Below are positions 398 through 27,348 of a stretch of 33,354 bases of DNA, in pieces (the stretch's first letter is position 1; each line of letters starts with the position of its first letter). The stretch lies in NCBI GenBank assembly GCA_022545455.1, contig JACZQZ010000013.1, positions 1 through 33,354 of the forward strand, given 5' to 3'. The position numbers and the translations under genes are program-made. The notes below the pieces were generated by a model that saw nothing but the letters and a program-made list of their open reading frames with translations, did no database searches and was not told where the DNA came from. The DNA comes from Pseudomonadota bacterium (GTDB taxonomy: Bacteria; Pseudomonadota; Alphaproteobacteria; Rhodospirillales; 2-02-FULL-58-16).

Positions 398-1810
398 TCA
401 CCGGGCGCACAGGGGCGGCGGTCCAAGTCGCTCCCGCCCGCTGCCCAGAACCCTTTCGCAGGCCAACGCCGCGGCCAGCACGCGTTCCTCGTGCCCGCCC
501 GGCGCCATGAACTGAAGCCCCACCGGCATCCCTGCTCCGTCCAGCGCCACGGGCATGGTCAACCCGCACAGGCCGAGCAGGTTGGCGGGGATGGTGTTGC
601 GGGTCATCGCCGCCTGGGTCCGGCCGTAAGCCTCGTCCGTGGCGACCTCGTCGACCGTCGGCGGCGTGATCGGCACCGTGGGCGCGACCAGCACGTCCAC
701 TTGGCGCAGGCGCGTCTCCGCGGCCGCACCGAGCTCGCGCAACGCGCGCAGCGCCGTGACGTAGTCCACCGCCGAAACCTCGCGGGCAATGTCGAAGCGC
801 ACCCGCACGTTGGGATCCAGGGTGTCCATGCGATCAGGGTATTCCTCGGCGATGACCGACAGCCCCTCGATCCCGAAGGGTTGCAAATGGAGGGCGCGGC
901 GCCCGGCCTCGCCGGCCTCGGGAAACGGCAGACGGACCAGGCGTGCACCCTTGCCGGTAAGTTCGTCGAGGGCCGCCTTGACGCCTTCGGCGATGCCCGG
1001 CGCGCAACCGTCCCAGAAATGCTCGTCGCAGATGCCCAGGCGCAGATCCGCGACGCCCACGCCATCGAGCCGCCGGAACAGGGCGTCCGCATCCCCGTGG
1101 GCCGGGTCGATGGCGGCGAAGGCGACGGCGGCGTCCTCCACCGATCGGGTCAACGGCCCGGGAGTATCGAAGGTCGGGCTCAGTGGCACGATGCCCCGGG
1201 TCGACCAACGCCCGGCGGTGGTCTTGAGCCCCACCTGCCCGGTGACGCTGGCCGGGATGCGAACCGAGCCGCCGGTATCCGTGCCCATGGCGATGACCGC
1301 CGAGCCCTCGGCCAGGCTCACCCCGGCGCCGGCGCTGGAGCCGCCGCACACCCGGTGGGCCGCCGCGTCCCAGGGATTGCGCGGTGTCTCCCAGTGGGCG
1401 GTCAGGCCGATGGCGCCGAGGGCGAACTCCACCGTATGGGTCTTGCCCATGACCACCGCGAGCCCGTGGCGGAGCGCCCCGACCACCGGTCCTTCCGTGC
1501 GCCACTTGCCGGGCAGCTCCTTGGGCGTGCCGGCGAAGGTGGGCATGCCGGCGACGCCGTAGATGTCCTTGATGGAAACCGGCAGGCCCATCAACGGCCC
1601 GGCGTCGTGGCCGGCCGCCAAGAGTCCACCGACCGCCCGCGCCTCGCTCCGGGCCCGCTCCGCATCCCAGTGCTTGTAGGCATGTAAGGCCCCGCCATAG
1701 CGCCCGTGCCGCGTCACCGCCTCGTCGATCAGGTCCTCGAAACCGATCATTCCGTCGCGCAGGGCGGCGGCAATCTGGCGCACGGGCCGCTCGATCACAT
1801 GCGTGCTCAC
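398..1810 (-). CDS. Amidase-signature family hydrolase
   Basis: A 470-residue amidase-signature enzyme, expected to hydrolyse a carboxylic amide to acid and ammonia in the cytoplasm. The catalytic set is complete: Lys81 in SIKDIYG, the Ser-Ser pair 158-159 in GGSSAGAG, and the nucleophile Ser182 in TDTGGSVRIPA. Length matches the family. The start is a GTG with GGGGAG about 8 nt upstream. It is the last gene of a four-gene minus-strand operon, 36 nt after the PEP mutase-like gene. No GatB or GatC gene is nearby, so it is not evidently the GatA subunit of the tRNA amidotransferase. The substrate cannot be read from the sequence; co-location with a second amidase and a Liv-type importer suggests an imported amide. 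The family call is firm, the role open. Confidence 0.9.
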   Translation of the reverse strand: MSTHVIERPVRQIAAALRDGMIGFEDLIDEAVTRHGRYGGALHAYKHWDAERARSEARAVGGLLAAGHDAGPLMGLPVSIKDIYGVAGMPTFAGTPKELPGKWRTEGPVVGALRHGLAVVMGKTHTVEFALGAIGLTAHWETPRNPWDAAAHRVCGGSSAGAGVSLAEGSAVIAMGTDTGGSVRIPASVTGQVGLKTTAGRWSTRGIVPLSPTFDTPGPLTRSVEDAAVAFAAIDPAHGDADALFRRLDGVGVADLRLGICDEHFWDGCAPGIAEGVKAALDELTGKGARLVRLPFPEAGEAGRRALHLQPFGIEGLSVIAEEYPDRMDTLDPNVRVRFDIAREVSAVDYVTALRALRELGAAAETRLRQVDVLVAPTVPITPPTVDEVATDEAYGRTQAAMTRNTIPANLLGLCGLTMPVALDGAGMPVGLQFMAPGGHEERVLAAALACERVLGSGRERLGPPPLCAR

Positions 1811-1846
1811 GGACGTTCTCCCCTCGCTCCTCGTCGATGGGCCTGA

Positions 1847-2683
1847 TCAGCGGTCGAACATCCGGTTTATATCCGCGAACGGGACGGCATCCTTGGTAAA
1901 GTCGAAAGTCCCGGGGCCAAGGAGTTCTTCGGCGGCGCGCTTCATGAGCCCGTAGGCGGCGCGCGCCAGGCTGCTGCCGATGCTGACCCGGGCGACGCCC
2001 AGGGCCTGGAGTTCCGCAACCGGCACCGTCGTTGGCCCGGCGAGGACGTTGACAGGGCCGTCGATACGTTCGACCAGCTGGCCAATGGTCGGCGCGTCGC
2101 CCACCATGGGCACGAAAAGGCAATCGGCGCCTGCCGCGCGGTAGGCGTTGGCGCGTCGCACCGACTCCTCGAACACGTCTTCGCCGTTTCCACCGTTCAC
2201 CATGTAGCCATCGGTGCGGGCGTTGATGACGAGGGGCACGCCGGCGGCATTGGCGGCCTTCCGAGCCGCCCGGATGCGCTCCACGGCAAGCGCAATCTCG
2301 AACAGTGGATCGCTGGCGCATCCCGTGCTGTCCTCGATGTTGATACCGACGGCGCCGGCCTCGACAGCCCTTTTGACCGACTCCGCCACGGCCTCGGGTG
2401 ACGGTCCGTAGCCCGCCTCGATGTCCGCGGTGACGGGAAGGGGAACGGCGGCGGTGATGCGGCCGACCACGTCGAGCATCTGCTCACGGCTGATCCGTTC
2501 CCCGTCGGGATATCCCAGCGCGAAAGCTATCCCAGCGCTGGTGGTCCCCATGGCAGAGAATCCGGCCCCGGCGAGGAACCGGGCGCTGCCCACGTCCCAG
2601 GCATTGGGCAGGATCAGGATTTCCGGTCCCTTATGGAGTTCGCGAAGCGCTTCCGCCTTGGCTCGTTGGGTTTCGACGTCCAT
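1847..2683 (-). CDS. Isocitrate lyase/PEP mutase family protein
   Basis: A 278-residue member of the isocitrate lyase/phosphoenolpyruvate mutase superfamily, which makes or breaks C-C or C-P bonds on small 2-oxo acids. Visible features are TTSAGIAFALGYPDG near the N-terminus, the metal-binding TADIEAGYG segment, the GINIEDS strand and INARTDGY. I see neither the KKCGH loop of true isocitrate lyase nor a clear EDKxxKxNS loop of PEP mutase, so it fits the broad group annotated as oxaloacetate decarboxylase or carboxyphosphonoenolpyruvate mutase-like. The start ATG is preceded by GGGGAGA; an upstream in-frame extension would run into the def-like gene and has no family resemblance. It lies 49 nt after the deformylase gene and 36 nt before the amidase gene. 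The reaction is unknown. Confidence 0.85.
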   Translation of the reverse strand: MDVETQRAKAEALRELHKGPEILILPNAWDVGSARFLAGAGFSAMGTTSAGIAFALGYPDGERISREQMLDVVGRITAAVPLPVTADIEAGYGPSPEAVAESVKRAVEAGAVGINIEDSTGCASDPLFEIALAVERIRAARKAANAAGVPLVINARTDGYMVNGGNGEDVFEESVRRANAYRAAGADCLFVPMVGDAPTIGQLVERIDGPVNVLAGPTTVPVAELQALGVARVSIGSSLARAAYGLMKRAAEELLGPGTFDFTKDAVPFADINRMFDR

Positions 2684-2732
2684 GGTCAAATCTCCCCGTG
2701 GAATGCATGATCCGGCAAACCGCGCCCGCCGC

Positions 2733-3293
2733 TCATTCGACGAACTCTTCGGGCGAGCGCTGAACGATGAAGGTGGTCTCACCGAGTTCGGTGTTGAAGG
2801 ACAGGGTCGACAGATCGGTCATCCGCATGGGATACAGGATGCCGTCCAGGTGGTCGTATTCGTGCTGCAACAGCATGGCATGAAAGCCCGCCGCGGTGAT
2901 ATCGATGGGCGCCCCGTCGAGGCCCACGGCTTCCAGGTGGACCTTGGTGTAGCGCGGCACCATGCCGTGCAGTCCGGGAATTGACAGGCAGCGTTCCCAG
3001 ATCGGCTTCTTCTCCTCGGTAAGCGGTGTCAGCACCGGATTGACGAGAACCCGCCAGGGAATCGGCTTCATCGTCGAACCCGGCGGGATTTGGCGTTCGG
3101 CCACCCGGTAGACCACCATGCGCTTCGAGACGTGCACCTGGGGCGCCGCGAGACCGTTTCCGCCGATGTCTTCCAGCGTCTCCCGCATGTCGTCGGCCAG
3201 CTTGGCAATTTCCGGCGCGGCGGGGTCTTCCACCGGCTCGGCCACCCGTTTCAACACCTCGTCGCCCATCCGGGCGATCTTCAGGATGGCCAT
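2733..3293 (-). CDS. Peptide deformylase-like metalloenzyme
   Basis: A 186-residue member of the deformylase family, which removes the N-formyl group from new polypeptides. Motif 1 is GGNGLAAPQ (44-52), motif 2 is ERCLS with metal ligand Cys102, and motif 3 is HEYDH with ligands His144 and His148 and catalytic Glu145. Motif 2 is usually EGCLS; Arg replaces Gly here, a change often seen in divergent deformylases. The ATG at 3293 has GGAG upstream, and the family N-terminus (ILKIARMGDEVL) begins right there. The gene is embedded in a catabolic-looking operon, 50 nt after the peroxiredoxin-like gene, with no fmt or rsmB beside it as housekeeping def genes often have. It may be a second, specialised deformylase; that is inference. 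Confidence 0.9.
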   Translation of the reverse strand: MAILKIARMGDEVLKRVAEPVEDPAAPEIAKLADDMRETLEDIGGNGLAAPQVHVSKRMVVYRVAERQIPPGSTMKPIPWRVLVNPVLTPLTEEKKPIWERCLSIPGLHGMVPRYTKVHLEAVGLDGAPIDITAAGFHAMLLQHEYDHLDGILYPMRMTDLSTLSFNTELGETTFIVQRSPEEFVE

Positions 3294-3343
3294 GATTTTC
3301 TCCTTTTCCTCCCTGCATCCTCTCTGCGCTGCACCGGCGCCGG

Positions 3344-3862
3344 TCAATCCGCGTCGCCCCGGGGCGGATAGTCGCGGGCGCGGATCATGTCGATGGATTC
3401 GAGCACATCGGCGAAGTGGGGCCGGTTGAAGGGTGTCGAATTGTAGATGGCCGAATAAAGGGTGCCGTCGGGCCTCACCAGGCACGTTGCCGGCTCGTTG
3501 AACTGGCGCGGCTCCACATCGGTGATGGCATTGCTAAGGTAGAGCCCCCATTCCCGGGCCTTCTCCAGCGACAGGCCGTAGCCGATGGTCAGGCGATCGA
3601 GGCCCCAGTTTTCCTTGGCCTTTTCCGCCCGGTCGACGCCGTCGGTGCTGATGGCGATGACCTGGACCCCCCGTTCGGCGAAGCGGTCCAGCTTGGCCTG
3701 AAGGTCGATGAGATGCTGGCGGCAGCGCGGGCAGTGGTACCCGCGGTAGAATTCGATCAGGGCGAAGGTTTCCGGTTTTTGATCGGCGAGGCGCCAAATC
3801 TCGCCGCCCGCCGTCTCCACCTCCAAATCCGGAACCTTGGTGTTGGGTTTCAGGCCGCTCAT
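3344..3862 (-). CDS. Peroxiredoxin-like (AhpC/TSA) family protein
   Basis: A 172-residue thioredoxin-fold protein of the AhpC/TSA type. After a short N-terminal strand (KVPDLEVETAGG) comes IEFYRGYHCPRCRQHL, with a CPRC pair at Cys44 and Cys47 where the peroxidatic or redox centre lies. VIAISTDGVDRAEKAKENWGL follows, the usual second half of the fold. The CxxC arrangement differs from the single-Cys PxxxTxxC of classical 2-Cys peroxiredoxins, so the protein is better called peroxiredoxin-like; the electron donor is unknown. No signal peptide is visible. The ATG at 3862 has GGAGG upstream. It is the first gene of a minus-strand operon with the deformylase, PEP mutase-like and amidase genes. Confidence 0.85.
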   Translation of the reverse strand: MSGLKPNTKVPDLEVETAGGEIWRLADQKPETFALIEFYRGYHCPRCRQHLIDLQAKLDRFAERGVQVIAISTDGVDRAEKAKENWGLDRLTIGYGLSLEKAREWGLYLSNAITDVEPRQFNEPATCLVRPDGTLYSAIYNSTPFNRPHFADVLESIDMIRARDYPPRGDAD

Positions 3863-4343
3863 GGGTTCCTCCGTGTTCGTGCCCGGGTTGCAGGCCGGGG
3901 GGCCGCTCGGGCCAAGGGTACCACGGAAAACCCGGCGGCGATCAACCTCTTTCGGCAACGGCGCCAAGGGGTCGGCGGCGGCGGCGTTTCGATCCCGTTC
4001 CCCCCGTTGGCGCCCGGATCGGCGTCAGATTCCTCCAGCTTTCGTCACGCCCGCTTCCCGGTGCGACGACGTTTCGCCTGAAGTCAACGAATAATTCCTC
4101 CATCGAATTGCAACCATGCACGTTGCGCATGCGTCCGCGCGCGCAGCCATTTCACGTGTCCATTGACTCACTGATGTAATACGGAGACGATGAAGGGACA
4201 TTAATAAAAAAACCGAAGCAGCCGGTACTCGGGGCAGGGCAAAATCCCTGAATCGGCGTCAGGCCGAATCAATGGGCCCGACCAACGGCGCCCGGTCGCA
4301 AGACTGAAGGTCTGCGAGATCTGATTACAGAGGAGGATTCAAT
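3863..4343. promoter_or_regulatory. Divergent intergenic region upstream of the Liv-type cluster
   Basis: This 481 bp gap separates the minus-strand peroxiredoxin operon from the plus-strand transporter genes and must hold both promoters. On the plus strand a TTGACT box (4163-4168) is followed after 17 nt by a poor -10 (GACGAT, 4186-4191), so that promoter is weakly supported. The region becomes AT-rich around 4177-4213. In the leader, TGAATCGGC (4249-4257) pairs with GCCGAATCA (4263-4271) with one mismatch around a 5 nt loop. No gene is seen in the gap. Confidence 0.45.
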
Positions 4344-5588
4344 ATGATTTCTAGGCTGTCAGAAAAACTTAGATCCCTCCGAACCATGGGGTTGTCCATG
4401 GCCGGGGCAGCAGCGCTCGCCACAGTCATGTTCCTGCCGACCCAGTCGGCGGCAGAAGAGGAGGTGGTGATCCTCGGCATTTGGCCAATCACTGGTCCCT
4501 ATGCCGACATGGGACCCCTGCTTGACCGGGGCGTAGAGATCGCGCTCGAGGAGGTCGGCTACAAGGTCGCGGGCAAGAAGATCAAGTATATCACGCGCGA
4601 TAGTGAGACCAAGGCCGGCACCGCCGCTCGGCGGGCCCAGGGGGCGATCGACTCCGAGGGTGTGAAGTTCATCATCGGGCCGTGGTCGTCAGGCGTCGCG
4701 CTCGCGGTGACCGAGGTCGCCAAGAAGAACAAGGTGATGTACTACTTCTCCGGCGGCACAGAGGACATCACGGGCAAGCGCTGTCACAAGTACGCCTTCA
4801 TGTGGGCGGCCAACGCCTGGACGGCGATGGACGCCAACCTGAAAATCTTCAAGAAGTTCAACCCGGACGCCAAGTCGATCTATCTGTTCGTTGTCGATTA
4901 TGCATTCGGTTGGACGCTGCAGAAATATGTCGAGAAGCTTGCACCGAAATACGGGCTCAAGATCGCTGGTGTCGACCGGCACCCCCTGGGCCATCGCGAG
5001 TACTCGTCCTTTATCACCAAAGCCATGGCGACCAAACCGGACGCCGTCTACATGATCAATTTCGGCCTCGACGCCATATCGGCGGTGCGCCAGCTCTACA
5101 ACTTCGGCTTCACGCCGAAGAAGCCGGTGATCCTGTCGTGGTCGGCGGGTGTCGAAGAGCTAGTGCAGATGGATCCGGCGATGCGCGCCAACCTGCAGTT
5201 CGGAACCAACTATTACTACACGGTCGACACGCCGGGGAACAAATCCTTCGTCGATGCCTACAAGAAGAAAAGCGGCGGCATTCCGCCGGGATACGCCCCG
5301 GGCGCCGGCTATGGGTTAATGAAGATGACCCTGCTGGGGATGCAAAAGGCCAACAGCACCGACCCAAAGAAGGTCATCCAGGCCCTCGAAGGGCTGAAGG
5401 GCAAGAACTTCGTGGGCGACTTCGCGATCAACGGCCGCAACCACCAGACCGTGCGGCCCTACTTCGTCGCGCGCACGAAGCCCGAGGATAAGATGGCCAA
5501 CAAGTACGACTTCGCGACAATCCAGGACATCAGTTCGACGGAACAACCGCGCGATCTCAACCAGTGCCAGGACATCGGCGGCTTTTAG
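4344..5588 (+). CDS. Branched-chain-type ABC transporter substrate-binding protein
   Basis: A 414-residue periplasmic binding protein of the LivK/type I fold. A basic N-terminus and hydrophobic stretch end in SAA-EE, giving a signal peptidase I site after about residue 37. The mature protein opens with VVILGIWPITGPYADMG, typical of Liv-type receptors, and continues through IIGPWSSGVALAVTEVAKK and a second lobe. The start ATG has a strong GAGGAGG site. It heads a transporter set with two permeases and two ATPases, separated from them by a strong hairpin. Ligands of this family include amino acids, amides, urea and aromatic compounds; flanking amidase genes make an amide ligand plausible, but this is inference. 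Confidence 0.93.
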   Translation: MISRLSEKLRSLRTMGLSMAGAAALATVMFLPTQSAAEEEVVILGIWPITGPYADMGPLLDRGVEIALEEVGYKVAGKKIKYITRDSETKAGTAARRAQGAIDSEGVKFIIGPWSSGVALAVTEVAKKNKVMYYFSGGTEDITGKRCHKYAFMWAANAWTAMDANLKIFKKFNPDAKSIYLFVVDYAFGWTLQKYVEKLAPKYGLKIAGVDRHPLGHREYSSFITKAMATKPDAVYMINFGLDAISAVRQLYNFGFTPKKPVILSWSAGVEELVQMDPAMRANLQFGTNYYYTVDTPGNKSFVDAYKKKSGGIPPGYAPGAGYGLMKMTLLGMQKANSTDPKKVIQALEGLKGKNFVGDFAINGRNHQTVRPYFVARTKPEDKMANKYDFATIQDISSTEQPRDLNQCQDIGGF

Positions 5589-5611
5589 TCCTGCCCCACG
5601 CGATGGAACCC

Positions 5612-5635
5612 GATCCCGGCCAAAAGGCCGGGATC
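5612..5635 (+). terminator. Intercistronic hairpin after the binding-protein gene
   Basis: GATCCCGGCC (5612-5621) and GGCCGGGATC (5626-5635) form a perfect 10 bp stem with an AAAA loop, 23 nt after the stop codon and 47 nt before livH. Only a short, weak T-run (GTTT) follows, so it may be a partial terminator or a 3' end stabiliser. Such hairpins commonly let the binding protein be made in excess over the membrane parts. Confidence 0.75.
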
Positions 5636-5682
5636 GTTTCCCCGGTGCCTGAACAAGACGCAGGGTAGGCGGTTCCGTTGGC

Positions 5683-6543
5683 ATGAGTTTCTTGATCCTA
5701 AGCCAGATCCTGAACGGTTTTGCCACGGGCATGCTGTATGCGCTGGTCGGCGTCGGCTTGACGCTCGTGTTGGGCGTCCTCAACCTCCCCAACTTCGCCC
5801 ATGGCACACTCTTTGCCTTTGGCGCCTATTTCACATACACCGTCGCCAATTTGACGGATTCGTTTTACTTGGGGGTTCTTATCGGCCCCCTCCTGGTAGT
5901 ACTGATAGGCTTCGTTATCGAAAGCCAGGGGGTAAGGCGGCTCTATGCGGCGCATCACGATTATCAACTTCTATTTCTGTTCGCGATCGCGCTCATCCTG
6001 CAAGAGACGGTGATCCTGATCTGGGGTCCGGTCGGCTTTTCGCTGCTGCCGCCGAAATTCCTCGCCGGCGCCGTCGATCTCGGCTTCACCGTCTATCCGA
6101 AATACAGGCTGGCGCTGATCTTGTTCACGGCGACCATCGTGGTGGCCCTGTACCTCATGCTGACTCGGACGAACGTCGGCGCGATCCTGCGCGCCGGAAT
6201 CGAGAACCGGGAAATGGTCAAGGTCCTCGGGATCAACATCAACAAGGTTTTTCTTTTCACGTTTGGTCTCGGCGCTTATCTGGCAGGTCTCGCCGGGGGC
6301 CTAGCGACTCCCATCTGGGGCCTGACGCCCACCATGGGTTTCGACATTCTCCCCATATCCTTCGTCATCGTGGTGGTGGCCGGGCTCGGCAGTATCCTGG
6401 GTGCCATCGCGGCGGGAATCCTGATTGGTCTCGCTCAGAGTCTGACGACGATCTGGTGGCCCGAGGCCGCGAACGTCGTCATCTACCTGATCATGGGTCT
6501 GACCATCATTCTTCGACCGCAGGGGCTATTCGGAAGCCGGTGA
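5683..6543 (+). CDS. Branched-chain-type ABC transporter permease (LivH type)
   Basis: A 286-residue inner-membrane permease, nearly all hydrophobic, with about eight predicted membrane segments. The N-terminus (LSQILNGFATGMLYALVGVG then LTLVLGVLNLPNFAHG) is characteristic of LivH. The conserved cytoplasmic stretch with GAILRAGIENREMVKVLGIN contacts the ATPase. It ends with the usual GLFGSR tail. The ATG at 5683 lacks a strong ribosome binding site (GGGTAGGCGG lies far upstream). Its TGA stop overlaps the livM start by one base, so livM is probably translationally coupled. Confidence 0.93.
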   Translation: MSFLILSQILNGFATGMLYALVGVGLTLVLGVLNLPNFAHGTLFAFGAYFTYTVANLTDSFYLGVLIGPLLVVLIGFVIESQGVRRLYAAHHDYQLLFLFAIALILQETVILIWGPVGFSLLPPKFLAGAVDLGFTVYPKYRLALILFTATIVVALYLMLTRTNVGAILRAGIENREMVKVLGININKVFLFTFGLGAYLAGLAGGLATPIWGLTPTMGFDILPISFVIVVVAGLGSILGAIAAGILIGLAQSLTTIWWPEAANVVIYLIMGLTIILRPQGLFGSR

Positions 6544-7463
6544 TGCGCGATCGAAACATATTCCTGATCGTTCTGGCCTTCGTCGTCATCGGCCCGTTCG
6601 TGCAGCCCAAGGTGATTATCACCGAGATGCTGATCTTCGGCATTGTCGCGGTGGCTAACAACATCATGATCGGCTACACGGGCATGCTGTCCTTCGGGCA
6701 GGCGATGTTCTTCGGCATCGGCGCCTATGTCGCGGGACTACTGCTCAAGGCGGGTATGCCGCTCATCGTCGCACTGCCGGTCGGCACTCTGTTCGTCCTG
6801 GTGCTGTCGATCGCGGTCGGTTACTTCTGCGTCCAGCGGACCGGCCTCTACTTCATCTGCATCACCTTTGCCTTCAACCAAATGTTCTATTTCATCGCCT
6901 ATTCCTGGACCGGGCTGACCGGCGGGGAGGATGGTCTGCCCGGCATCCCGCGTCCGAGCTTGCTGCTCGATCCGGTCGCCTTTTATGTTTTTGTTGCCGT
7001 CGTGTTCTTGGCCTGCCTCGTCGCCATGAAGCGAATCGTCGACTCGCCGCTGGGACTGATCTGCCAAACCATCCGGGAGAACCCCTCGCGTGCCGCGGCG
7101 GTGGGGTATAACGTGAAGCTCTACAAGTTGACTGCCTTCACCATAGCGAGCACCTTCACCGGCCTCGCCGGCACCGTCTACGCCATGCTCTACGGTATCG
7201 TCCCCATCGATCAAATCCACTGGCTCAAGTCCGGCGACTTCATCTTCATGACGCTCTTGGGAGGCACCGGGAACTTCTTCGGGCCGATCATGGGCGCCGT
7301 CGGATACATCTGGATGTCGGAGACCTTCAGCCTGTACTGGGCGCGCTGGCCGTTAATCATGGGCATCGTATTCGTCGTCGTCGTCCTCTACCTGCGCGGC
7401 GGCATCGTCGAACTCATAGGCAAGGTCTACGGCAGCATTCAGCGGGCGCGGGAGGCGCCTTAG
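6543..7463 (+). CDS. Branched-chain-type ABC transporter permease (LivM type)
   Basis: A 306-residue second permease of the importer, with multiple hydrophobic helices. The family stretch NNIMIGYTGMLSFGQAMFFGIGAY is split here only to identify it: the core GYTGMLSFGQ is diagnostic of LivM. A cytoplasmic coupling segment (ENPSRAAAVGYNVKLYKLTAF) and the GGTGNFFGPIMGA signature follow. The start ATG lies in TGATG, overlapping the stop of livH. The next gene (livG) begins 3 nt after its stop, consistent with one transcript. There is no fused C-terminal ATPase domain as in some LivM proteins. Confidence 0.93.
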   Translation: MRDRNIFLIVLAFVVIGPFVQPKVIITEMLIFGIVAVANNIMIGYTGMLSFGQAMFFGIGAYVAGLLLKAGMPLIVALPVGTLFVLVLSIAVGYFCVQRTGLYFICITFAFNQMFYFIAYSWTGLTGGEDGLPGIPRPSLLLDPVAFYVFVAVVFLACLVAMKRIVDSPLGLICQTIRENPSRAAAVGYNVKLYKLTAFTIASTFTGLAGTVYAMLYGIVPIDQIHWLKSGDFIFMTLLGGTGNFFGPIMGAVGYIWMSETFSLYWARWPLIMGIVFVVVVLYLRGGIVELIGKVYGSIQRAREAP

Positions 7464-7465
7464 CG

Positions 7466-8215
7466 ATGGCCGGGCTGCTCGAATGTCACGCCTTGTCGAA
7501 GAACTTCGACGCTGTCGCCGCGGTCGTCGACGTCAACCTCGAAGTGACGGAAGGCAGCGTCCACAGCATCATCGGTCCCAACGGCGCGGGCAAAACCACG
7601 TTCTTTAACCTGATTTCGGGCGAGGTTCCCCCGACGGCCGGGCGCGTCTATTTCAAAGGTCGGGACATCACCGGGCTCCCCTCCCACCAGATCCCTCACG
7701 TGGGCATTGCCCGATGTTTCCAACGGACCAACATCTTTCCGAAGCTCACCGTCTTCGAGAACGTGTGGGTCGCCATGTTCTCGCGGTCGAATTCAGGCGC
7801 CTTGGATTTTATCAAGCGAGTCTCCGATTTTGGGGAAATCGGAGACAAGACGCGGGAGATTATTTCCGAGTTGGGGCTCGAGGAAAAGCTGACTGAGCGT
7901 GCGGAGACGCTTTCCCATGGACAGCAGCGCGCCCTTGAGGTGGCGATCGCCCTCGCGGGGGCACCAACACTTATCCTCTTGGACGAGCCCACCCAGGGGC
8001 TGGCCCCCGAGGCCACCCAGCAGATGACCCAGCTCATCCAGCGCCTTGCCGGCCGATACACTATCCTCCTCATCGAGCACAAGATGCACGTGGTGATGGC
8101 GATTTCCCACTGGATTTCGGTAATGCACTTCGGGCAGATCATCGCCGAGGGCGGACCTGACGAGATCCGGCAAAACGAGGCGGTCCAGAAAGCGTACCTG
8201 GGAGGCCGTCGATGA
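7466..8215 (+). CDS. Branched-chain-type ABC transporter ATPase (LivG type)
   Basis: A 249-residue ATP-binding subunit that powers the importer. Walker A is GPNGAGKTT (37-45), the Q-loop glutamine is near residue 86, the signature is LSHGQ (149-153, His in place of the usual second Gly of LSGGQ), Walker B is LILLDE (169-174) and the switch His is in LLIEHKM. LSHGQQRALE is common in this ATPase subgroup, so the His is not a defect. The gene starts 3 nt after livM and ends by overlapping livF in ATGA. Confidence 0.93.
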   Translation: MAGLLECHALSKNFDAVAAVVDVNLEVTEGSVHSIIGPNGAGKTTFFNLISGEVPPTAGRVYFKGRDITGLPSHQIPHVGIARCFQRTNIFPKLTVFENVWVAMFSRSNSGALDFIKRVSDFGEIGDKTREIISELGLEEKLTERAETLSHGQQRALEVAIALAGAPTLILLDEPTQGLAPEATQQMTQLIQRLAGRYTILLIEHKMHVVMAISHWISVMHFGQIIAEGGPDEIRQNEAVQKAYLGGRR

Positions 8216-8910
8216 TCCTGAAACTAGAGGAGATCCACACCTATTACGGGCTCGTGCATATGTTGCAGGGCGTCTCCCTCGAGATAGCAGAGGGAGAGGT
8301 GGTGGCCCTTCTCGGGCGGAACGGGGCGGGGAAGACCACGGCGCTCAAGAGCATCATGGGACTGGCTCCACCTCGCCAGGGTAAGGTCCTGTTTGAAGAC
8401 CAGGATATTACAGGCCTGCCTCCTCATGTGATTGCCCGGCTAGGCATTGCCTATGTCCCGGCGAGCCGCGGGATCTTCATGACCCTCACGGCTACGGAGA
8501 ATTTGAAAATCGTTCGCACCAAGGGGGCTCGGTGGGACACGGAGGACGTTTTCCGGCGCTTCCCCAAACTTGCTCCTTTGAAACGACGCCGCGGCCGTTC
8601 TTTGTCTGGAGGAGAGCAGCAGATGCTTGCCATCGGCCGCGCCTTGGTCACCGGTCCTTCCCTGATCCTCCTGGATGAACCCTCCCAAGGGCTCGCCCCG
8701 ATGGTAGTTGAGCTTGTCGTCGACATGCTTCGCGAGCTGAAAGCCGAAGGAGTGAGCATGCTGTTGGTGGAGCAGAACCTACAGATGGCCCTCGACCTGG
8801 CGGAGCGGGTGTACATCCTCGACCAGGGGGCGGTCGTCTTCGAAGGGTCCGCCCGAGAGTTGATCAACAACGACCAGCTGACCGCTAGTTACCTTGGGGT
8901 GAGCGCCTGA
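8212..8910 (+). CDS. Branched-chain-type ABC transporter ATPase (LivF type)
   Basis: A 232-residue second ATPase of the importer. Walker A is GRNGAGKTT (35-43), the signature LSGGEQQ starts at 131, Walker B is LILLDE (151-156), followed by the switch region LLVEQN. The segment AYVPASRGIF replaces the Q-loop region in the way usual for LivF. Its ATG overlaps the livG stop by 4 bases (ATGA), a sign of translational coupling. The second amidase gene follows after 88 nt without a visible terminator. Confidence 0.93.
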   Translation: MILKLEEIHTYYGLVHMLQGVSLEIAEGEVVALLGRNGAGKTTALKSIMGLAPPRQGKVLFEDQDITGLPPHVIARLGIAYVPASRGIFMTLTATENLKIVRTKGARWDTEDVFRRFPKLAPLKRRRGRSLSGGEQQMLAIGRALVTGPSLILLDEPSQGLAPMVVELVVDMLRELKAEGVSMLLVEQNLQMALDLAERVYILDQGAVVFEGSARELINNDQLTASYLGVSA

Positions 8911-8998
8911 GGAGTCTTTGGAGGAGCGGGCTCGGCCGTCGAGGAGATGAAGAAAAATCCGGAAATTGTCGCAACTTACGTGGCTATCGGTTGACCCT

Positions 8999-10342
8999 AT
9001 GAATGACGCACCGGTGCAAACCACCAACTACGTTGCCGATCCCGGCAGGATCGCGGACCTCGCCCGGCGCATCCGGGAGGGGGAACTCTCCCCGGCCGAC
9101 CTGGTCCGGGGCTGCCTCGATCGCATGAAAGTGACTGAGCCGGTGGTCGAGGCATGGCGCGAAGTCTGCGCCGACACCGTGTTGGCGGAGGCCGAGCAGC
9201 GAGCGAAGGAGGTCGAGGACGGCCTGGTGCGTGGGCCGTTGCACGGCATCCCGGTGGGCATTAAGGACATCATCGACGTCGCCGGCGTTCCGACGCGCTG
9301 CAACAGCTTGAGCCGCGCCGACGCGGCGCCAGCGACGGCCGACGCCGAGATCGTCTCCGCCTTGCGCGCCGCCGGGGCGGTTATCCTCGGCAAGACCCAC
9401 ACGACGGAGTTCGCCTATTTCGACCCATCGCCAGCGCGCAACCCGCATGACATCGAGCACACGCCGGGCGGGTCCAGCAGCGGCTCCGCGGCGGCGGTCG
9501 CGTCGGGGACCGTGCCGGCGGCCCTCGGCACCCAGACCATGGCGTCGCTCAACCGGCCGGCCGCGTATTGCGGCATAGCCGCGTTCAAACCCAGCACCCA
9601 GCTCCTCAGCACCTTCGGGATCGAGCCGCTGTCGACGCTCTACGACACCGTGGGGTTCTATGGCTGGAGCGTGGCCGACGCAGTGGCCATTTTTGACACC
9701 GTTTGCCCGGCCCACGCACGGCTTGGGCGGGAAGAGCTGCGGGATGGTCCTCTGACCGTCGTGGTCCTGCAGGACCCGTTCATCGACGAGGCAGATGAGG
9801 ACGTCAAGCAAGCGGTCGACCGGGTCGCGGGGTGCGTGGCGGACGCCGGCCATTCCGTTGAGTCGAGGGACACGAACCTGTCTTTCGCGCATCTTTACGA
9901 CCTCCAGGTTCTGACCATGGAATACGAAATCGGTCGCATACAGCGGCGGCTTCTCGACGAGCCGGAGGGGCGCGTCGGCGCCAAGCTCAGCGAGACCATC
10001 CGGCGGGGCAGTAAGATCGACGACGCTGCCTACCTCGATGGGCGCCGTGCGCTGGATGACGCCCGCAGCAAATTTTTCGGCGCGTTAGAGGGTGTCGACG
10101 CCTTTCTCTGGCCGGCCACGCCGAAAACTGCCCCGCGAGGCATAGCGTGGACGGGAGAACCCAAGTTTATTTCGCCCTGGACCGCGCTCGGTGGTCCCGT
10201 GGTGACCATGCCCGCGGGGGCCGGCGCCGATGGACTGCCCATTGGATGTCTCGTCACGGGCGCGCCGGGCAGCGACTTTCGGTTCGGTCGGATCGCCTGC
10301 CGCATCGCCGAAGCGGCTGAGGCACACGGGACCGCCAGCTAG
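8999..10342 (+). CDS. Amidase-signature protein with altered nucleophile loop
   Basis: A 447-residue amidase-signature protein. Lys89 (VGIKDIID) and the serines of GGSSSGSAAA (159-161) are present, and the nucleophile position is Ser183. The two residues before it, Gly-Gly in nearly all relatives (GTQTGGSV), are Met181-Ala182 (GTQTMASLNRPAAYCG). This loop forms the oxyanion hole, so activity or specificity may differ. The ATG at 8999 lacks a clear ribosome binding site. A TTG at 8966 in the same frame is possible, but the residues it would add do not look like the family. It follows livF by 88 nt on the same strand and is probably co-transcribed. It may be an active amidase, a binding protein derived from one, or a decaying enzyme. 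Confidence 0.88.
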   Translation: MNDAPVQTTNYVADPGRIADLARRIREGELSPADLVRGCLDRMKVTEPVVEAWREVCADTVLAEAEQRAKEVEDGLVRGPLHGIPVGIKDIIDVAGVPTRCNSLSRADAAPATADAEIVSALRAAGAVILGKTHTTEFAYFDPSPARNPHDIEHTPGGSSSGSAAAVASGTVPAALGTQTMASLNRPAAYCGIAAFKPSTQLLSTFGIEPLSTLYDTVGFYGWSVADAVAIFDTVCPAHARLGREELRDGPLTVVVLQDPFIDEADEDVKQAVDRVAGCVADAGHSVESRDTNLSFAHLYDLQVLTMEYEIGRIQRRLLDEPEGRVGAKLSETIRRGSKIDDAAYLDGRRALDDARSKFFGALEGVDAFLWPATPKTAPRGIAWTGEPKFISPWTALGGPVVTMPAGAGADGLPIGCLVTGAPGSDFRFGRIACRIAEAAEAHGTAS

Positions 10343-10606
10343 TCATTGTGGTCCCAGCGGTAATTATCACCGGTCTTGCGAAAGGAGGTATGAGCGGGTG
10401 ACCGAGTCTCCGGCGATAAACGAATGTGGCGCGGCGAGGTACTGTCTCGCGTGTCACTCCCGTACCAAAATCACTGGTTTTCGGTACACACACCTTCTGA
10501 ACCTCGTAATCCAACGAATGTCCGCAAAGGGTCAGAACCGGACGTTCAGTAGACCCGCGCTGGATGTCCGCTCATAGCCAAATTCGAACAATAAAGGAAC
10601 CGCGTG
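10343..10606. other. Intergenic region with GTCCGC repeats
   Basis: No gene is seen in these 264 bases between the second amidase and the RidA-family gene. The right half contains the second cluster of GTCCGCTT-type palindromes (10517-10577). A ribosome binding site for the RidA gene (AAAGGAA, 10593-10599) ends the region. I find no good promoter pair or terminator. Confidence 0.5.
10517..10577. repeat. GTCCGCTT-type palindrome cluster, second location
   Basis: AATGTCCG (10517-10524) pairs with CGGACGTT (10539-10546), and a further half-unit ATGTCCGCTCATAGCCA begins at 10564. The loop word GGGTCA and the tail TTCAGT match the copies at 51-171, so these belong to one repeat family placed about 10 kb apart. 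Confidence 0.7.
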
Positions 10607-10999
10607 ATGTTGAAGGTACATGTCCTCGACGAACTCTATCATCATTCAAGCAACGTCGCCCACGGGGTCGAAGTGCCGGCCGGCGCGCGCCTGTTGTTCA
10701 CCAACGGCCAGGTCGGTACCAAGCCTGACGGATCTACGCCCGAAGCGACGGCGGATCAGGCAGAGGTCATCTTCGGGAGGTTAACGGCGGTTCTGGAACG
10801 GGCGAACATGACCCTCGGCGACATCGTCCGCTTTACCGTTTATCTGACCGACCAGGCGGATGTAAAAACCTTCGTCGAGGTGCGTGACCGTTTCATGGGT
10901 GATCACAAGCCGGGCGCCACACTCCTTGTCATCAAGGGGCTGGCCCGACCGGAGTTGAAGATAGAGATCGAGGCCGTGGCCGCGAAGGTGGATCGATGA
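10607..10999 (+). CDS. RidA/YjgF family protein
   Basis: A 130-residue member of the RidA family. RidA proper hydrolyses reactive 2-imino acids released by PLP enzymes. The fold is clear: ARLLFTNGQVGTKPDG, VIFGRLTAVLERANMTLGDI and the C-terminal LARPELKIEIEAVA. RidA proteins carry an arginine (Arg105 in E. coli) in the context RLPxxxxVEIEA; aligning KIEIEA puts Leu at that place, with the only nearby Arg two residues later. This suggests a non-RidA Rid subfamily whose activity is unproven. The ATG at 10607 is 9 nt after GG of AAAGGAA; a GTG just before it is equally spaced. It lies downstream of the amidase and may act in the same pathway. Confidence 0.9.
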   Translation: MLKVHVLDELYHHSSNVAHGVEVPAGARLLFTNGQVGTKPDGSTPEATADQAEVIFGRLTAVLERANMTLGDIVRFTVYLTDQADVKTFVEVRDRFMGDHKPGATLLVIKGLARPELKIEIEAVAAKVDR

Positions 11000-11013
11000 C
11001 AACGTCCGGGTAG

Positions 11014-11095
11014 GGTCAAACCCGGTAGTTCGCCGGGTTGGTTACGGTTGACCGGTGTGGACCTGTGAGCGGACGTCGCCACCCGCCACACCGGT
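11014..11095. terminator. Hairpins between convergent RidA and tyrS genes
   Basis: AACCCGG (11019-11025) pairs with CCGGGTT (11033-11039), nested inside GGTCAA (11014-11019) with TTGACC (11048-11053). A second stem pairs ACCGGTGTGG (11051-11060) with CCACACCGGT (11086-11095) across a 25 nt loop. The region lies between two convergent genes and could end transcription from both sides. No strong T-runs are present, so rho-independent termination is not certain. Confidence 0.5.
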
Positions 11096-11104
11096 TAATG
11101 AGTC

Positions 11105-12358
11105 CTAGACCGCCCGCACGACGGCGTGGCGCTTCCTGCCGGCGGAGAGCTTGATCACCCCTTCGCCGGTGAGGTCGGCGAGGCCCACCAGCCGGGTCTC
11201 GTCGGTGATGACGGTGCCGTTGAGGCGGCCGCCGCCGCCCTTGATCAGGCGCCGGGCCTCGCCGTTGGTTTTGGCCAGGTTGGCGCGCCGCAAAAGCTCG
11301 AAGGCGGGGATGCCGTTTTCCAGGTCCGCCCGGGGCACGTCCACGGTGGGAAGCTGGTCGCCGCTGGCGCCTTCGTCGAAGGTTTGCCGGGCCGTCTCGG
11401 CGGCGGCGGCGGCCGCCTCGGCGCCGTGGCACAGGCCGGTCGCCGCGTCCGCCAGGACCTTCTTGGCCTGGTTGATCTCGGCGCCCTCGAGGGCTTCGAG
11501 GCGCCGCACCTCGTCGAGCTCCAGGTCGGTGAACAGGCGCAGGAACCGGCCGACGTCGGCGTCGTCGGTATCGCGCCAGTACTGCCAGTATTCATAAGGC
11601 GACAGCATGTCCTTGTTCAGCCACACCGCGCCGGCCGCGGTCTTGCCCATCTTGGCGCCGCCCGACGTGGTCAACAGCGGCGTCGTCAGCCCGAACAGCG
11701 GCCGGCCACCCAGCCGGCGGCCCAGTTCCACGCCGTTGACGATGTTGCCCCATTGATCGGACCCGCCCATTTGCAGCTCGCAGCCGTAGCGCCGGCTCAC
11801 CTCGACGAAGTCGTAGGCCTGCAGGACCATGTAATTGAACTCGAGCAGGCTGAGCGTCTGCTCGCGGTCCAGGCGCAGCTTCACGCTGTCGAAGGCGAGC
11901 ATGCGGTTGACCGAGAAGTGGCGCCCGAAATCGCGCAGGAACGGGATGTATTCAAGGCCGTCCAGCCAGTCCGCGTTGTTGACCATGACGGCGTCCGAGG
12001 GTCCCTCGCCGAAGGTCAGGAACCGGGAGAAGACCTCCCCGATCCCCGCCATGTTGGCGCCGATCTCGTCGTCGCTGAGAAGCTTGCGGCTTTCGTCCTT
12101 GCCCGACGGATCGCCGACCTTGGTCGTGCCCCCGCCCATCAGCACGATGGGCTTGTGGCCGGTGCGCTGTAGTATCCTGAGCAGCATGATGGAAACCAGG
12201 CTGCCGGCGTGCAGGCTGGGGGCGGTGCAGTCGAAGCCGATGTAGCCGGCGACGGCCTTCCCGGAGGCCAGGAGGTCGAGCCCCTCGAGGTCCGTGCACT
12301 GGTGCAGGTAGCCTCGCTCGACGGCGGTGCGGATAAACTCCGAGCGGTGGGTGGGCAT
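11105..12358 (-). CDS. Tyrosyl-tRNA synthetase
   Basis: A 417-residue class I aminoacyl-tRNA synthetase that charges tRNA-Tyr. The HIGH-type motif appears as SLHAGSL (around His50), the tyrosine pocket as GSDQWGNI (199-206), and the KMSKS-type loop as AKMGKT (235-240). The S4 RNA-binding domain occupies the C-terminus, about 350-417 ([20 protein letters not shown]). Length is normal for bacterial TyrS. The ATG at 12358 has only a poor ribosome binding site and a short predicted leader. It diverges from anmK, an arrangement I know from other alphaproteobacteria. Confidence 0.97.
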
Positions 12359-15313: not shown

Positions 15314-15814
15314 GTGAGACTAAGCACCAAAGGACGATACGCCGTGATGGCCATGGTCGACCTAGCGGCGAACAGCAGCGGAAGGCCGATCGCGTTGGCC
15401 GAGGTCGCCGAGCGCCAGGAGATATCGCTTTCGTACCTGGAGCAGCTGTTCGCGAAAATCCGCCGGGGCGGCCTGGTGAAAAGCGTCCGCGGGCCGGGCG
15501 GCGGCTATCTCCTGGCGCGCGACGCCAGCGCGCTCAGGGTATCCGACATCATCTTAGCCGTGGACGAGACCATCCGGGCGACGCGCTGCACGCCGGGATC
15601 CCCCGCCGGGTGCACATCGGACAGGAGCCGTTGTCTGACCCACGACCTGTGGGAGGAACTGGGCAACCAGATTTACCTGTATCTCAGTTCGGTGTCCCTC
15701 GCCGACGTGTGTGCCGGTCGCGTGCTGGGAACCAGCGGCGACCTGTTCCGCCGCGCCCGGACGGCCAAAATGGCCGCGCATGAAGGCGTAAATCGGGCGA
15801 CCACGGCCCGCTAG
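15314..15814 (+). CDS. IscR-type Rrf2 family transcription regulator
   Basis: A 166-residue DNA-binding regulator with an N-terminal winged helix (MRLSTKGRYAVMAMVDLA, LSYLEQLFAKIRRGGLVKSVRG). Three cysteines, Cys92, Cys100 and Cys107, and His110 (CLTHDLW) match the Fe-S cluster ligand pattern of IscR (Cys92, Cys98, Cys104, His107 in E. coli) with slightly wider spacing. It probably carries a [2Fe-2S] cluster and controls this operon according to cluster status. The start is a GTG with GGGGAGG 6 nt upstream. It lies 33 nt after cysE and 11 nt before the NifS-like gene. Confidence 0.92.
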   Translation: MRLSTKGRYAVMAMVDLAANSSGRPIALAEVAERQEISLSYLEQLFAKIRRGGLVKSVRGPGGGYLLARDASALRVSDIILAVDETIRATRCTPGSPAGCTSDRSRCLTHDLWEELGNQIYLYLSSVSLADVCAGRVLGTSGDLFRRARTAKMAAHEGVNRATTAR

Positions 15815-15825
15815 AAACATCCGTC

Positions 15826-16974
15826 ATGGATTACGGTGTCGACATGGACCGCGCTGTCTATCTGGATCACAACGCGACCACCACGGTCAGGCCGGCGGCG
15901 GCCGAGGCCGTGGCGGCGGCCCTGTCGCTGACCGGCAACGCCTCGTCGGTGCACGGCTTCGGCCGCGCCGTGCGCCGCACCGTGGAAGACGCCCGCGAGG
16001 CGGTCGCCGCCCTGGTCGGCGCCGCCCCGGCGGACGTGGTGTTCACGAGCGGCGGCACCGAGGCCAACAACCTGGCCCTCAGGGGCTCGGGGCGCGAGCG
16101 CATCCTGGTCTCGACGGTGGAGCACGAATCGGTGCTCATGGCGGGGGCGGGGGCCGCGTTGATCCCCGTGGACTCAGACGGCGTCGTCGACCTCGATGCC
16201 CTGGACTCCCTGCTGGCGGGCGAGGGGACCCCGGCCCTGGTTTCGGTCATGCTGGCCAACAACGAGACCGGCGTCGTGCAGCCGGTGGCCGGGATCGCCG
16301 GGGTGGCGCGGCGTTTCGGAGCCCTGGTGCACTGCGATGCGGTGCAGGCGGCGGGCAAGATCCCCGTCGACATGTCGGCGCTCGGCGTCGACATGCTGTC
16401 GCTGTCGGCCCACAAGATTGGCGGGCCGGCGGGTGTCGGCGCCCTGGTCGTCGCCGATTCCGTGCCGCTCAGCCCCATCGTGTTCGGCGGCGGGCAGGAG
16501 CGCGGGCGGCGGATGGGCACCGAAAACTTTTCCGGCATCGCCGGCTTCGGCGCCGCGGCGCGGGAGGCCCGCAAGGGCGTGGACGGATTCGCCGAACTTG
16601 GGCGGTTGCGCGACGGACTGGAGCGGCGAATCCGCGACGTCTCGCCGGGGACGCGGATATTCGGCGCCGGCGCCGGGCGCCTGCCCAATACCAGTTGTCT
16701 CACCATGCCGGGCATGGCCAGCGAGACCCAGGTGATGGCCCTGGATCTGGCCGGCGTGGCGGTGAGCGCGGGCTCCGCCTGTTCCTCGGGCAAGGTGCAG
16801 GCGAGCCACGTGCTCGCGGCCATGAACGCGGACGCGGCCCAGGCCGCCAGCGCCATCCGGGCGAGCCTGGGCTGGAACAGCACGGCGCAAGACGTGGACC
16901 GGTTCGTTGACGCGTGGACCGCGCTTCATATCCGCGCCGAAGCCGGCCAAGGTGTGGCGGCGCCGGCGGCCTGA
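15826..16974 (+). CDS. NifS-like cysteine desulfurase
   Basis: A 382-residue PLP enzyme that takes sulfur from cysteine to form an enzyme persulfide and alanine. N-terminal [13 protein letters not shown], the PLP lysine Lys197 in SAHKIGG, the RMGTEN segment and the catalytic Cys319 in [17 protein letters not shown] are all present. It belongs to the same fold class as the next gene but is clearly divergent from it. The ATG at 15826 lacks a good ribosome binding site; Met7 (15844) is an alternative. It sits between iscR and iscS, 22 nt from the latter. Confidence 0.92.
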
Positions 16975-16996
16975 GCGCGAACAGCAAGGGAATACG

Positions 16997-18214
16997 ATGG
17001 GTAATTCCGGTGCCACGGACGGGGCCGGGCCGGGCCTTCGCAAACGCGATGTCCCCGTCTATCTGGACTACCAGGCGACGACGCCGACCGATCCGCGCGT
17101 CGTCCAGGCCATGCTGCCCTATTTCAGCGAGAAGTTCGGCAACCCCCATTCGCGCGAGCACTTTTTCGGCTGGGAGGCGGAAGACGCGGTGGAAAAGGCG
17201 CGCGGCGAGATCGCCCGCCTGATCGGCGCCACCGCCAGGGAGGTGATCTTCACCTCGGGCGCGACCGAATCCAACAACGTGGCGCTCAAGGGCGTGGCCC
17301 GTTTCTACAAGGACAGGAAGGACCACATCGTCACCTGTGTCACCGAACACAAGTGCGTCCTGGAAACCGCCCGCCACCTGGAGCACGAAGGTTTCCGGGT
17401 CACCTGTCTGCCGGTCGAGGCGACCGGGCTGATCGACCTGGACACGCTGAGGGACGCCATCACGGAGAACACCGTCATGGTCTCCGTCATGGCCGTCAAC
17501 AACGAGATCGGCGTCATCCAGCCGATCGGGGAGATCGGCGCCATGTGCCGCGAACGGGGCGCCTTTTTCCATACCGACGCGGCCCAGGCCGTGGGCAAGA
17601 TCCCGCTGGACGTGGACGCGATGCACATCGACCTGATGAGCATCTCGGGCCACAAGATTTACGGACCCATGGGAATCGGCGCCCTCTACGTGCGCCGCCG
17701 TCCGCGGGTGCGCCTGGTGGCGCTCATGGACGGCGGCGGCCAGGAGCGCGGCCTGCGATCGGGCACGTTGCCCACCCCCTTGTGCGTCGGCCTGGGCGAG
17801 GCCTGCGCCATCGCCGGGCGCGAGATGGGGGACGAGGCGGAGCGCCTGGCCGCCCTCAGGGACCGCTTCTACAAGGGCATCACCGGGCGCCTTCCCAGGG
17901 TCCATCTCAACGGGGACGCGGAACGGCGCATCCCCGGCAACCTCAACCTCAGCTTCGCCGACGTGGACAGCGAAGGCCTGATGGCGGGCATCAAGGACCT
18001 GGCGGTGTCCTCGGGCTCGGCCTGCACCTCGGCATCCGTGGAACCGTCCTACGTCTTGCGGGCGATCGGGCTCGACGACGGGCTGGCCAGGGGCGCCATC
18101 AGGGTAGGCTTCGGCCGCTTCACCACGGAAGACGACGTGGACTTCGCCGTCGACAGGATCGCCGGCGAAGTGGAGCGGTTGCGCCGGACGGGCCCGCTCC
18201 GGGAGACGGCTTGA
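16997..18214 (+). CDS. Cysteine desulfurase IscS
   Basis: A 405-residue IscS-type desulfurase, the general sulfur donor for Fe-S clusters, tRNA thiolation and thiamin. [15 protein letters not shown] begins the fold, Lys220 in [10 protein letters not shown] binds PLP, and Cys343 in [19 protein letters not shown] is the persulfide residue. The long Cys loop is typical of group I desulfurases. The ATG at 16997 has AAGGGAA upstream. No iscU, iscA, hscB or hscA follows, which is unusual; fdx comes next after 28 nt. MnmA, a known client of IscS, is encoded at the end of the same run. Confidence 0.95.
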
Positions 18215-18242
18215 TCCCTGCCAAGCCCATGGGCCCGGCCGC

Positions 18243-18569
18243 ATGCCCACGATGACCTTTATCGAACCCGGCGGACGGCGCCGCGAGGTCGATGCCCCGG
18301 AAGGGGTGTCGGTGCTTGAGATCGCCCATAGCAACGCCATCGACCTGGAAGGCGCCTGCGAGGGCTGCATGGCGTGTTCCACCTGCCACGTGATCGTGGA
18401 CCCGGCGTGGTTCGTGAGGCTGCCCGAGAGCAGCGAGGAGGAGGACGACATGCTGGACCTGGCCCTGGGCCTGACCCGGACCTCGCGCCTGGGCTGCCAG
18501 ATCACCATCACCAAGGAACTCGACGGCCTCGTCGTGACCTTGCCGGCGGCGACCCGCGATGTCCGCTAA
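18243..18569 (+). CDS. [2Fe-2S] ferredoxin of the Isc type
   Basis: A 108-residue adrenodoxin-type ferredoxin that supplies electrons for Fe-S cluster assembly. Ligands are Cys39, Cys45 and Cys48 in GACEGCMACSTCHV and Cys85 in RLGCQI. The DPAWF segment and acidic SSEEEDDMLD stretch match Isc ferredoxins. An additional Cys42 lies inside the first ligand loop, where Ser or another residue is more usual. Its end overlaps the tenA start by 11 bases. It is the only Isc accessory gene in the window. Confidence 0.94.
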   Translation: MPTMTFIEPGGRRREVDAPEGVSVLEIAHSNAIDLEGACEGCMACSTCHVIVDPAWFVRLPESSEEEDDMLDLALGLTRTSRLGCQITITKELDGLVVTLPAATRDVR

Positions 18570-19281
18570 GGCTCAAGCGCCGGTGCCCGGAAAGGCGGTG
18601 AAGCCGTTCGCCTCAGGCAGCGTCTTCGGCCGCCTGCGCGCCGGCTGCCGGGAAGACTGGCAGGCCTACACCGGGCACGCCTTCGTCCGCGCGGTGGGCG
18701 ACGGCACCCTGGCCGAGCCCTGCTTCCGCCGGTACCTGGGTCAGGACTATCTGTTCCTCATCCACCTGGCCCGCGCCTATGCGCTCGCCGCCTACAAGGC
18801 CGACGGCCTGGACGACATCCGCCAGGCGGCGCGGTCGCTTTCCGCCGTCATCGACGTGGAAATGGGCCTGCACGTGACCTATTGTGCCGGCTGGGGCCTG
18901 AGCGAAGACGACATGGCCGCCCTGCCCGAGGCCCGGGCCACCATGGCCTATACCCGGTACGTGCTGGAGAAAGGCCTGGCCGGCGATATTCTGGACCTGC
19001 ATGTGGCGCTGGCGCCGTGCGTCGTCGGCTACGCCGAGATCGGCGCCGGCCTGATCTCCGGCCCGGCCACGCGCCTGGACGGCAACCCGTATCGTGAGTG
19101 GATCGAGATGTACGCGTCCACCGACTACCAAGACGTCGCCCGCGCCGAGGTGGCCACCATCGACCGCCTGATGGAACGCCGCGGCGGCCCGGGGCGCATC
19201 GACTCCCTTCTCACCACCTTTCGCCAGGCCACCCGCCTGGAGGCGGCATTCTGGGACATGGCGCTCGACGCCCCGGAGTGA
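18559..19281 (+). CDS. TenA-family thiaminase II/aminopyrimidine aminohydrolase
   Basis: A 240-residue TenA protein, expected to salvage thiamin breakdown products by deaminating aminomethyl- to hydroxymethylpyrimidine, or to cleave thiamin. Key residues of B. subtilis TenA are matched: Asp63 in GQDYLF, catalytic Cys154 in LAPCVVGY with Tyr158, and Glu228 in RLEAAFWDMA. About 20 residues precede the family start and look unstructured. The ATG overlaps fdx by 11 bases, and the next gene starts 4 nt after its stop. Unlike thiC it has no riboswitch of its own and is transcribed with sulfur genes. Confidence 0.9.
   Translation: MSAKAQAPVPGKAVKPFASGSVFGRLRAGCREDWQAYTGHAFVRAVGDGTLAEPCFRRYLGQDYLFLIHLARAYALAAYKADGLDDIRQAARSLSAVIDVEMGLHVTYCAGWGLSEDDMAALPEARATMAYTRYVLEKGLAGDILDLHVALAPCVVGYAEIGAGLISGPATRLDGNPYREWIEMYASTDYQDVARAEVATIDRLMERRGGPGRIDSLLTTFRQATRLEAAFWDMALDAPE

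Positions 19282-25459: not shown

Positions 25460-27348
<1,889 letters not shown>

Follow-up and report, generated by a model that had tools for sequence, protein, structure and literature searches.

A conserved importer-amidase module

The DNA analyzed here (the window) is the complete 33,354-nucleotide contig JACZQZ010000013.1 (C40 in our numbering) of a Pseudomonadota bacterium, whose genome assembly comprises 2.76 Mb in 191 contigs and is 92.64% complete. On its plus strand, positions 4344 to 10342 encode a periplasmic binding protein, two permeases, two ATPases, and an amidase (amidase 2), and these six genes form a conserved unit. With moderate confidence, the run was interpreted as an ATP-binding cassette (ABC) importer with its own cytoplasmic amidase, which together bring in and hydrolyze a small amide that is not urea. 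As the importer and an unusual amidase are neighbors not only here but also in several marine bacteria, the pair probably takes up and splits a small amide for nitrogen. The binding protein would capture a small molecule, other than urea, whose head group is urea-like or a primary amide; the permeases and ATPases would bring it into the cell, and amidase 2 would split the amide bond to give ammonia and an acid. An amide as the ligand, its hydrolysis by amidase 2 after import, and a role in the scavenging of nitrogen, perhaps also of carbon, are inferred.

The Urt-like binding protein (4344–5588) is followed by permease 1 of the LivH/UrtB type (5683–6543) and permease 2 of the LivM/UrtC type (6543–7463), the last base of the former being the first base of the latter. 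ATPase 1 of the LivG/UrtD type (7466–8215) overlaps ATPase 2 of the LivF/UrtE type (8212–8910) by four bases. Amidase 2 (8999–10342) completes the run; its start was placed at the ATG at 8999 in preference to the TTG at 8966.

To define the unit, named genomes were scanned with a two-sequence alignment of the binding protein, whereby 80 stretches were matched and 12 of these encode a relative. The 12 loci were then probed by translated searches with 13 window proteins at E ≤ 1e-8. The order binding protein–HMGF–amidase 2 on the same strand was found in nine of them, namely, seven records titled SAR116 (L022, L023, L024, L025, L027, L031, and L032), a record titled Alphaproteobacteria MED-G100 (L021), and a Rhodospirillales metagenome-assembled genome (L026); the amidase of L025 is truncated by the contig end. 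SAR116 are marine bacteria. The identity to the window was 73–78% for the binding protein and 74–76% for permease 1, while amidase 2 was 40–45% identical in eight loci and 51% in L026. Since amidase 2 is only 40–51% identical across the nine loci, its linkage to the importer has outlasted much divergence. Of all the window genes considered, a linkage above chance level was demonstrated solely for this run from the binding protein to amidase 2. The eight loci other than L026 are closely alike, with the window and L026 clearly separate from them, and thus they do not count as eight independent observations. The same importer also occurs in L028, where a different amidase lies directly upstream.

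Amidase 2 was matched at E ≤ 1e-100 in one of 100 relatives, which was the genome itself, and the binding protein at E ≤ 1e-120 in two of 386 genomes of the class, its own included. No match to amidase 2 was obtained in the viral contigs scanned. The GC content at third codon positions (GC3) of the plus-strand genes was 0.73–0.85, compared with 0.82–0.95 in the 13 genes measured downstream of position 11105. The rarity among relatives and the lower GC3 are suggestive, but only suggestive, of horizontal transfer of the module.

Two loci with this importer showed further genes. In L026, the stretch 6542–11186 starts with a second, different amidase soon after the module, and then a gamma-glutamyltransferase gene and a class II aldolase family gene lie on the other strand. 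In L020, which belongs to the same record as L028, genes resembling a luciferase-like monooxygenase and a 2-hydroxyacid dehydrogenase, both named by eye, were located downstream of the importer (17681–18838, plus strand).

Resemblance of the importer to urea transporters

The preliminary description of this DNA had called the importer Liv-type. The complete Pfam set of a branched-chain amino acid, urea, or amide ABC importer was present in one gene run with all curated cut-offs exceeded. The subunits themselves scored nearer to Urt than to Liv and remained below the cut-offs of both. With the NCBIfam models, the binding protein gave 114.8 bits for UrtA (cut-off 492.75) and 46.9 for the Liv-type binding protein (cut-off 477). 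Permease 1 gave 162 bits for UrtB (250.3) and 75.1 for LivH (379), and permease 2 gave 119.1 for UrtC (296.2) and 92.7 for LivM (366). The ATPases followed the same pattern, with 228.9 bits for UrtD (304.1) against 215.9 for LivG (362) in ATPase 1, and 227.4 for UrtE (285.8) against 195.2 for LivF (441) in ATPase 2. An automatic label of branched-chain amino acid transporter would probably mislead here.

The ligand pocket was compared by aligning the window protein with five UrtA sequences from relatives, the published residue numbering (PMC10392092) being transferred through UrtA sequence segments. According to that paper, nine residues surround urea in UrtA. Of these, Ser122, Gln144, Tyr190, and Asn246 contact it. 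Six of the nine are kept in the window protein, namely, Trp120, Ser122, Tyr141, Tyr190, Phe192, and Ser274, which correspond to W114, S116, Y134, Y186, F188, and S267. Among the four contact residues, Ser and Tyr are kept, Gln is lost, and Asn is uncertain. Three binding-protein paralogues in the same genome keep the Ser, while the Trp is replaced by Tyr, Phe, and Tyr, and the Tyr by Leu, Ile, and Val; in the relative at L020, Trp stands in place of Tyr134. As judged from these residues, the pocket would suit a ligand with a urea-like head group and a different remainder.

Amidase 2 and its nucleophile loop

Amidase 2 belongs to the amidase-signature family (PF01425, 228.8 bits, cut-off 27). 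Its nearest solved structure is malonamidase E2 (PDB 1ock and others), which was matched at 1.2e-55 with the single sequence and at 2.4e-80 with a profile, compared with 1.8e-56 for the next family. The catalytic Lys, the cis-Ser, the nucleophile Ser, and an Arg at position +3 from this last Ser were invariant in 12 aligned sequences, which included six of the nine linked copies. These four residues and the TQT before the loop are common to amidase 2 and malonamidase E2. In the latter, the Arg presumably holds the carboxylate of the substrate. However, Met-Ala replaces Gly-Gly before the nucleophile of amidase 2, and hydrolysis of malonamate would be at most a putative activity.

The nucleophile loop of amidase 2 reads TQTMAS, and Met-Ala precedes the nucleophile in the window and in all nine linked copies (10 of 10), in place of the usual Gly-Gly. 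Among unlinked relatives, Val-Ala or Ile-Ala was observed in G378, G451, and G293, and Ala-Gly in G249 and G127. Most other amidases compared have Gly-Gly, with Asn-Gly, Gly-Cys, and Ala-Gly as exceptions. A DNA pattern of the loop, in which the first residue of the pair before the nucleophile could be Ile, Met, Val, or Leu, occurred in one of 397 genomes of the phylum, which was the genome itself. The Met-Ala loop can be used as a sequence mark for the amidase group of the module. In a related enzyme, the oxyanion hole is formed by backbone amides of the nucleophile loop (PMC11708778); therefore, by analogy, the change probably reshapes the pocket of amidase 2 and does not remove catalysis. 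The structure model of the amidase was poor (mean predicted local distance difference test score, pLDDT, 61.3, and below 50 in the active-site stretch) and was not used.

Ligand of the module and alternative explanations

Within the proposed amide uptake, the ligand might be a carboxylate-bearing or N-acyl compound, such as a malonamate-like molecule, an acylated amino acid, or an aromatic amide, in place of a simple short-chain amide, and the amidase would then remove ammonia or an acyl group. The nearest solved enzyme, malonamidase E2, with the Arg at +3 in common, points in this direction, as does the fact that related binding proteins hold aromatic acids. However, amidase 2 is only distantly related to malonamidase E2 and has a different nucleophile loop, and this version was regarded as a serious possibility that falls short of probable. 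A further proposal, which we put forward tentatively, is an amide scavenging system of SAR116 and related bacteria, in which a dedicated importer and the rare Met-Ala amidase subfamily would serve one specific amide of the dissolved organic nitrogen, neither urea nor formamide and perhaps carboxylate-bearing. If true, such a system would be previously undescribed. Which organic nitrogen compounds SAR116 bacteria take up through Liv-like transporters has mostly been guessed so far, and the conserved importer-amidase pair opens the way to a direct ligand screen.

Several observations weigh against an amide importer with its own amidase. In a Rokubacteria locus (L029), the importer is present but 21 kb of sequence contained no match to an amidase, and L030 shows the binding protein only, its contig ending about 1 kb later. 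Outside the module, the closest relatives of the amidase (G293, G378, and G451) do not stand beside this importer. In the pocket, Gln144 and Glu146 of UrtA are lost and the loop there is three residues longer in the window protein, while Asn246 possibly corresponds to N239 as a seventh kept residue, a match that hinges on a one-residue gap. Moreover, the fold of the binding protein was compared using a structure model built from an alignment of 11 sequences, including seven of the nine module copies (mean pLDDT 80.5; used for fold comparison only). The best match was 4maa, titled amino acid binding protein, with a Z score of 49.3 and a root-mean-square deviation of 1.9 over 372 residues. The UrtA structures ranked lower, at about Z 38 (8hic, 38.2), among many binders of amino acids and aromatic acids.

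An alternative is that the substrates of the importer are ordinary amino acids (branched-chain or similar) and that amidase 2 shares the operon without sharing the function, acting on some internal amide. The family does hold many amino acid binders, 4maa is the top match in sequence as well as in fold, and the importer of L029 lacks the amidase. However, the Liv models scored below the Urt models for all five subunits, the linkage of amidase 2 recurs in nine of 12 loci, and Trp114 and Tyr134 match UrtA and differ from the three paralogues of the genome. Amino acid import was accordingly considered unlikely.

It was considered more improbable still that the importer is a divergent UrtABCDE for urea, which would then be hydrolyzed elsewhere. 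The window importer resembles UrtABCDE in subunit make-up, in the best-scoring models of all five subunits, and in most pocket residues (six or seven of nine). It differs in that every subunit falls below its Urt cut-off and that Gln144 and Glu146 are not kept. In addition, neither a UrtA above the cut-off nor a urease alpha subunit was found in the genome, which is 92.64% complete and in which urea carboxylase was not searched for; UrtA above the cut-off was present in 19 of 60 relatives examined.

Comparison with known importer-amidase systems

Uptake of an amide together with its hydrolysis has precedents, and the enzyme family differs. The formamidase FmdA is a member of PF03069, and the enzyme linked to the present module matches PF01425 only. 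The fmdCABDEF genes of Methylophilus methylotrophus form a system for short-chain amides and urea (cited in PMC10781810). Binding-protein-dependent amide uptake is tied to an amide hydrolase in both systems, but that of M. methylotrophus has a formamidase and an outer-membrane porin, and the conserved six-gene unit has neither.

The preliminary description had not recognized the gene combination as a named pathway. Urt-type transporters beside amidases have nevertheless been published, in Bradyrhizobium japonicum (blr0968–blr0973, with a formamidase and an aliphatic amidase; PMC3098086) and in Pseudomonas veronii (amiE-fmdA-fmdB-urtABCDE; PMC13209695). These clusters and the window have in common a five-part Urt-like importer next to an amide hydrolase, with amide uptake proposed over urea uptake. 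Their enzymes belong to PF03069 and PF00795 (PMC3098086), whereas that of the window is an amidase-signature enzyme of PF01425. An acesulfame plasmid cluster likewise has an ABC importer and an amidase (PMC10413263). Importer-amidase clusters are therefore already known, and the amidase-signature version found here differs from those described. The six-gene module itself was not found in the literature on amidases, malonamate, urea and amide transport, and SAR116 transporters, which was covered at less than full-text depth.

Other importers were also found beside related amidases. In G378, the relative of amidase 2 adjoins an oligopeptide-type ABC importer. In the window's own genome, a tripartite ATP-independent periplasmic (TRAP) importer consisting of DctP, DctQ, and DctM adjoins an amidase 39% identical to amidase 2 (L064, 3665–8803 on the minus strand, contig C138). 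Together, these two cases indicate that the pairing of such amidases with varied importers is recurrent.

Neighboring genes in the window

Five further genes flank the module. Four of them form a minus-strand run (398–3862) with gaps of 36–50 bp, namely, amidase 1 with the common TDTGGS loop (PF01425; 398–1810), a protein of the PEP-mutase/isocitrate-lyase superfamily (PF13714, 303.8 bits; 1847–2683), a peptide deformylase (TIGR00079, 114.3 bits, cut-off 103.95; 2733–3293), and a peroxiredoxin-like protein (AhpC-TSA, 63.8 bits; 3344–3862). A divergent gap of 481 bp separates this run from the plus-strand run, and the fifth gene, of the RidA family (10607–10999, plus strand), lies 264 bp behind amidase 2. 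The clustering of these genes with the importer and amidase 2 was confirmed, as all eleven reading frames are open, without internal stops, and near the positions first reported. The curated Pfam cut-offs were exceeded for PF01425 (twice), PEP_mutase, Pep_deformylase, AhpC-TSA, Peripla_BP_6 (binding protein), BPD_transp_2 (both permeases), ABC_tran (both ATPases), and Ribonuc_L-PSP (RidA). A scan for sigma-70 promoters between 3800 and 11200 found none, compared with 1.8 expected.

The preliminary description had joined all eleven genes into one pathway of amide or formamide import, carbon-skeleton cleavage, and detoxification by RidA. The part concerning import and hydrolysis of an amide remains plausible for the Urt-like importer and amidase 2, but the other five genes showed no recurrent link to them. 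In the 12 named-genome loci, the nine with the module included, no match to the PEP-mutase, deformylase, peroxiredoxin, or RidA gene was found near the module at E ≤ 1e-8; at E ≤ 1e-4, in loci longer than 4.5 kb, matches to these four occurred only in loci fetched for the PEP-mutase or the deformylase.

Three of the five genes were likewise scattered among relatives, an outcome that the preliminary description had itself named as contrary to its proposal. Homologues of amidase 1 at E ≤ 1e-90 were present in five of 41 genomes, its own included, and the rest of the minus-strand run did not surround those of the other four. For the PEP-mutase-like protein, which reached no cut-off among the NCBIfam models listed, homologues at E ≤ 1e-80 were present in three of 41 genomes, again with its own included, and both others stand without the remaining genes. 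Some deformylase match was found in 18 of 21 genomes. The best homologue (76% identical, G010) is not preceded by a peroxiredoxin, and the sequence downstream of it is truncated by the contig end. The window deformylase is the second copy in the genome, the other being located on contig C122. Since it passes the peptide deformylase cut-off of TIGR00079, it offers no grounds for bringing in formamide.

The short gaps suggest joint transcription of the minus-strand genes in this genome. No conserved linkage was found for the five genes, peroxiredoxin and RidA not having been searched separately in relatives, and all five are probably neighbors with no part in the importer-amidase function. Thus, although the eleven genes lie side by side in the window as two divergent runs, a single eleven-gene pathway was judged hardly tenable, and the wider island appears, as far as tested, to be a chance neighborhood.

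A role of the module in thiamine breakdown was also considered and rejected because the module is not preceded by a thiamine pyrophosphate (TPP) riboswitch, either in the window or in the seven loci scanned, and the thi genes lie kilobases away. Thiamine-related features do occur elsewhere in the window. A TPP riboswitch (27370–27504, minus strand) lies upstream of a thiC-like reading frame, named by eye (25460–27295, minus strand). The plus strand has at 18559–19281 a gene for the thiaminase II TenA (TIGR04306, 133.3 bits, cut-off 130). TPP riboswitches upstream of ThiY-like genes, also named by eye, were found in L022 (3469–3559, minus strand) and L023 (7254–7343, minus strand), a few kilobases from the module and on the opposite strand.

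Past the RidA gene, the window continues with a tyrosyl-tRNA synthetase-like gene and an anhydromuramic acid kinase-like gene, and at 15314–18214 on the plus strand, an IscR-like gene is followed by two adjoining cysteine-desulfurase-like genes, all of them named by eye.

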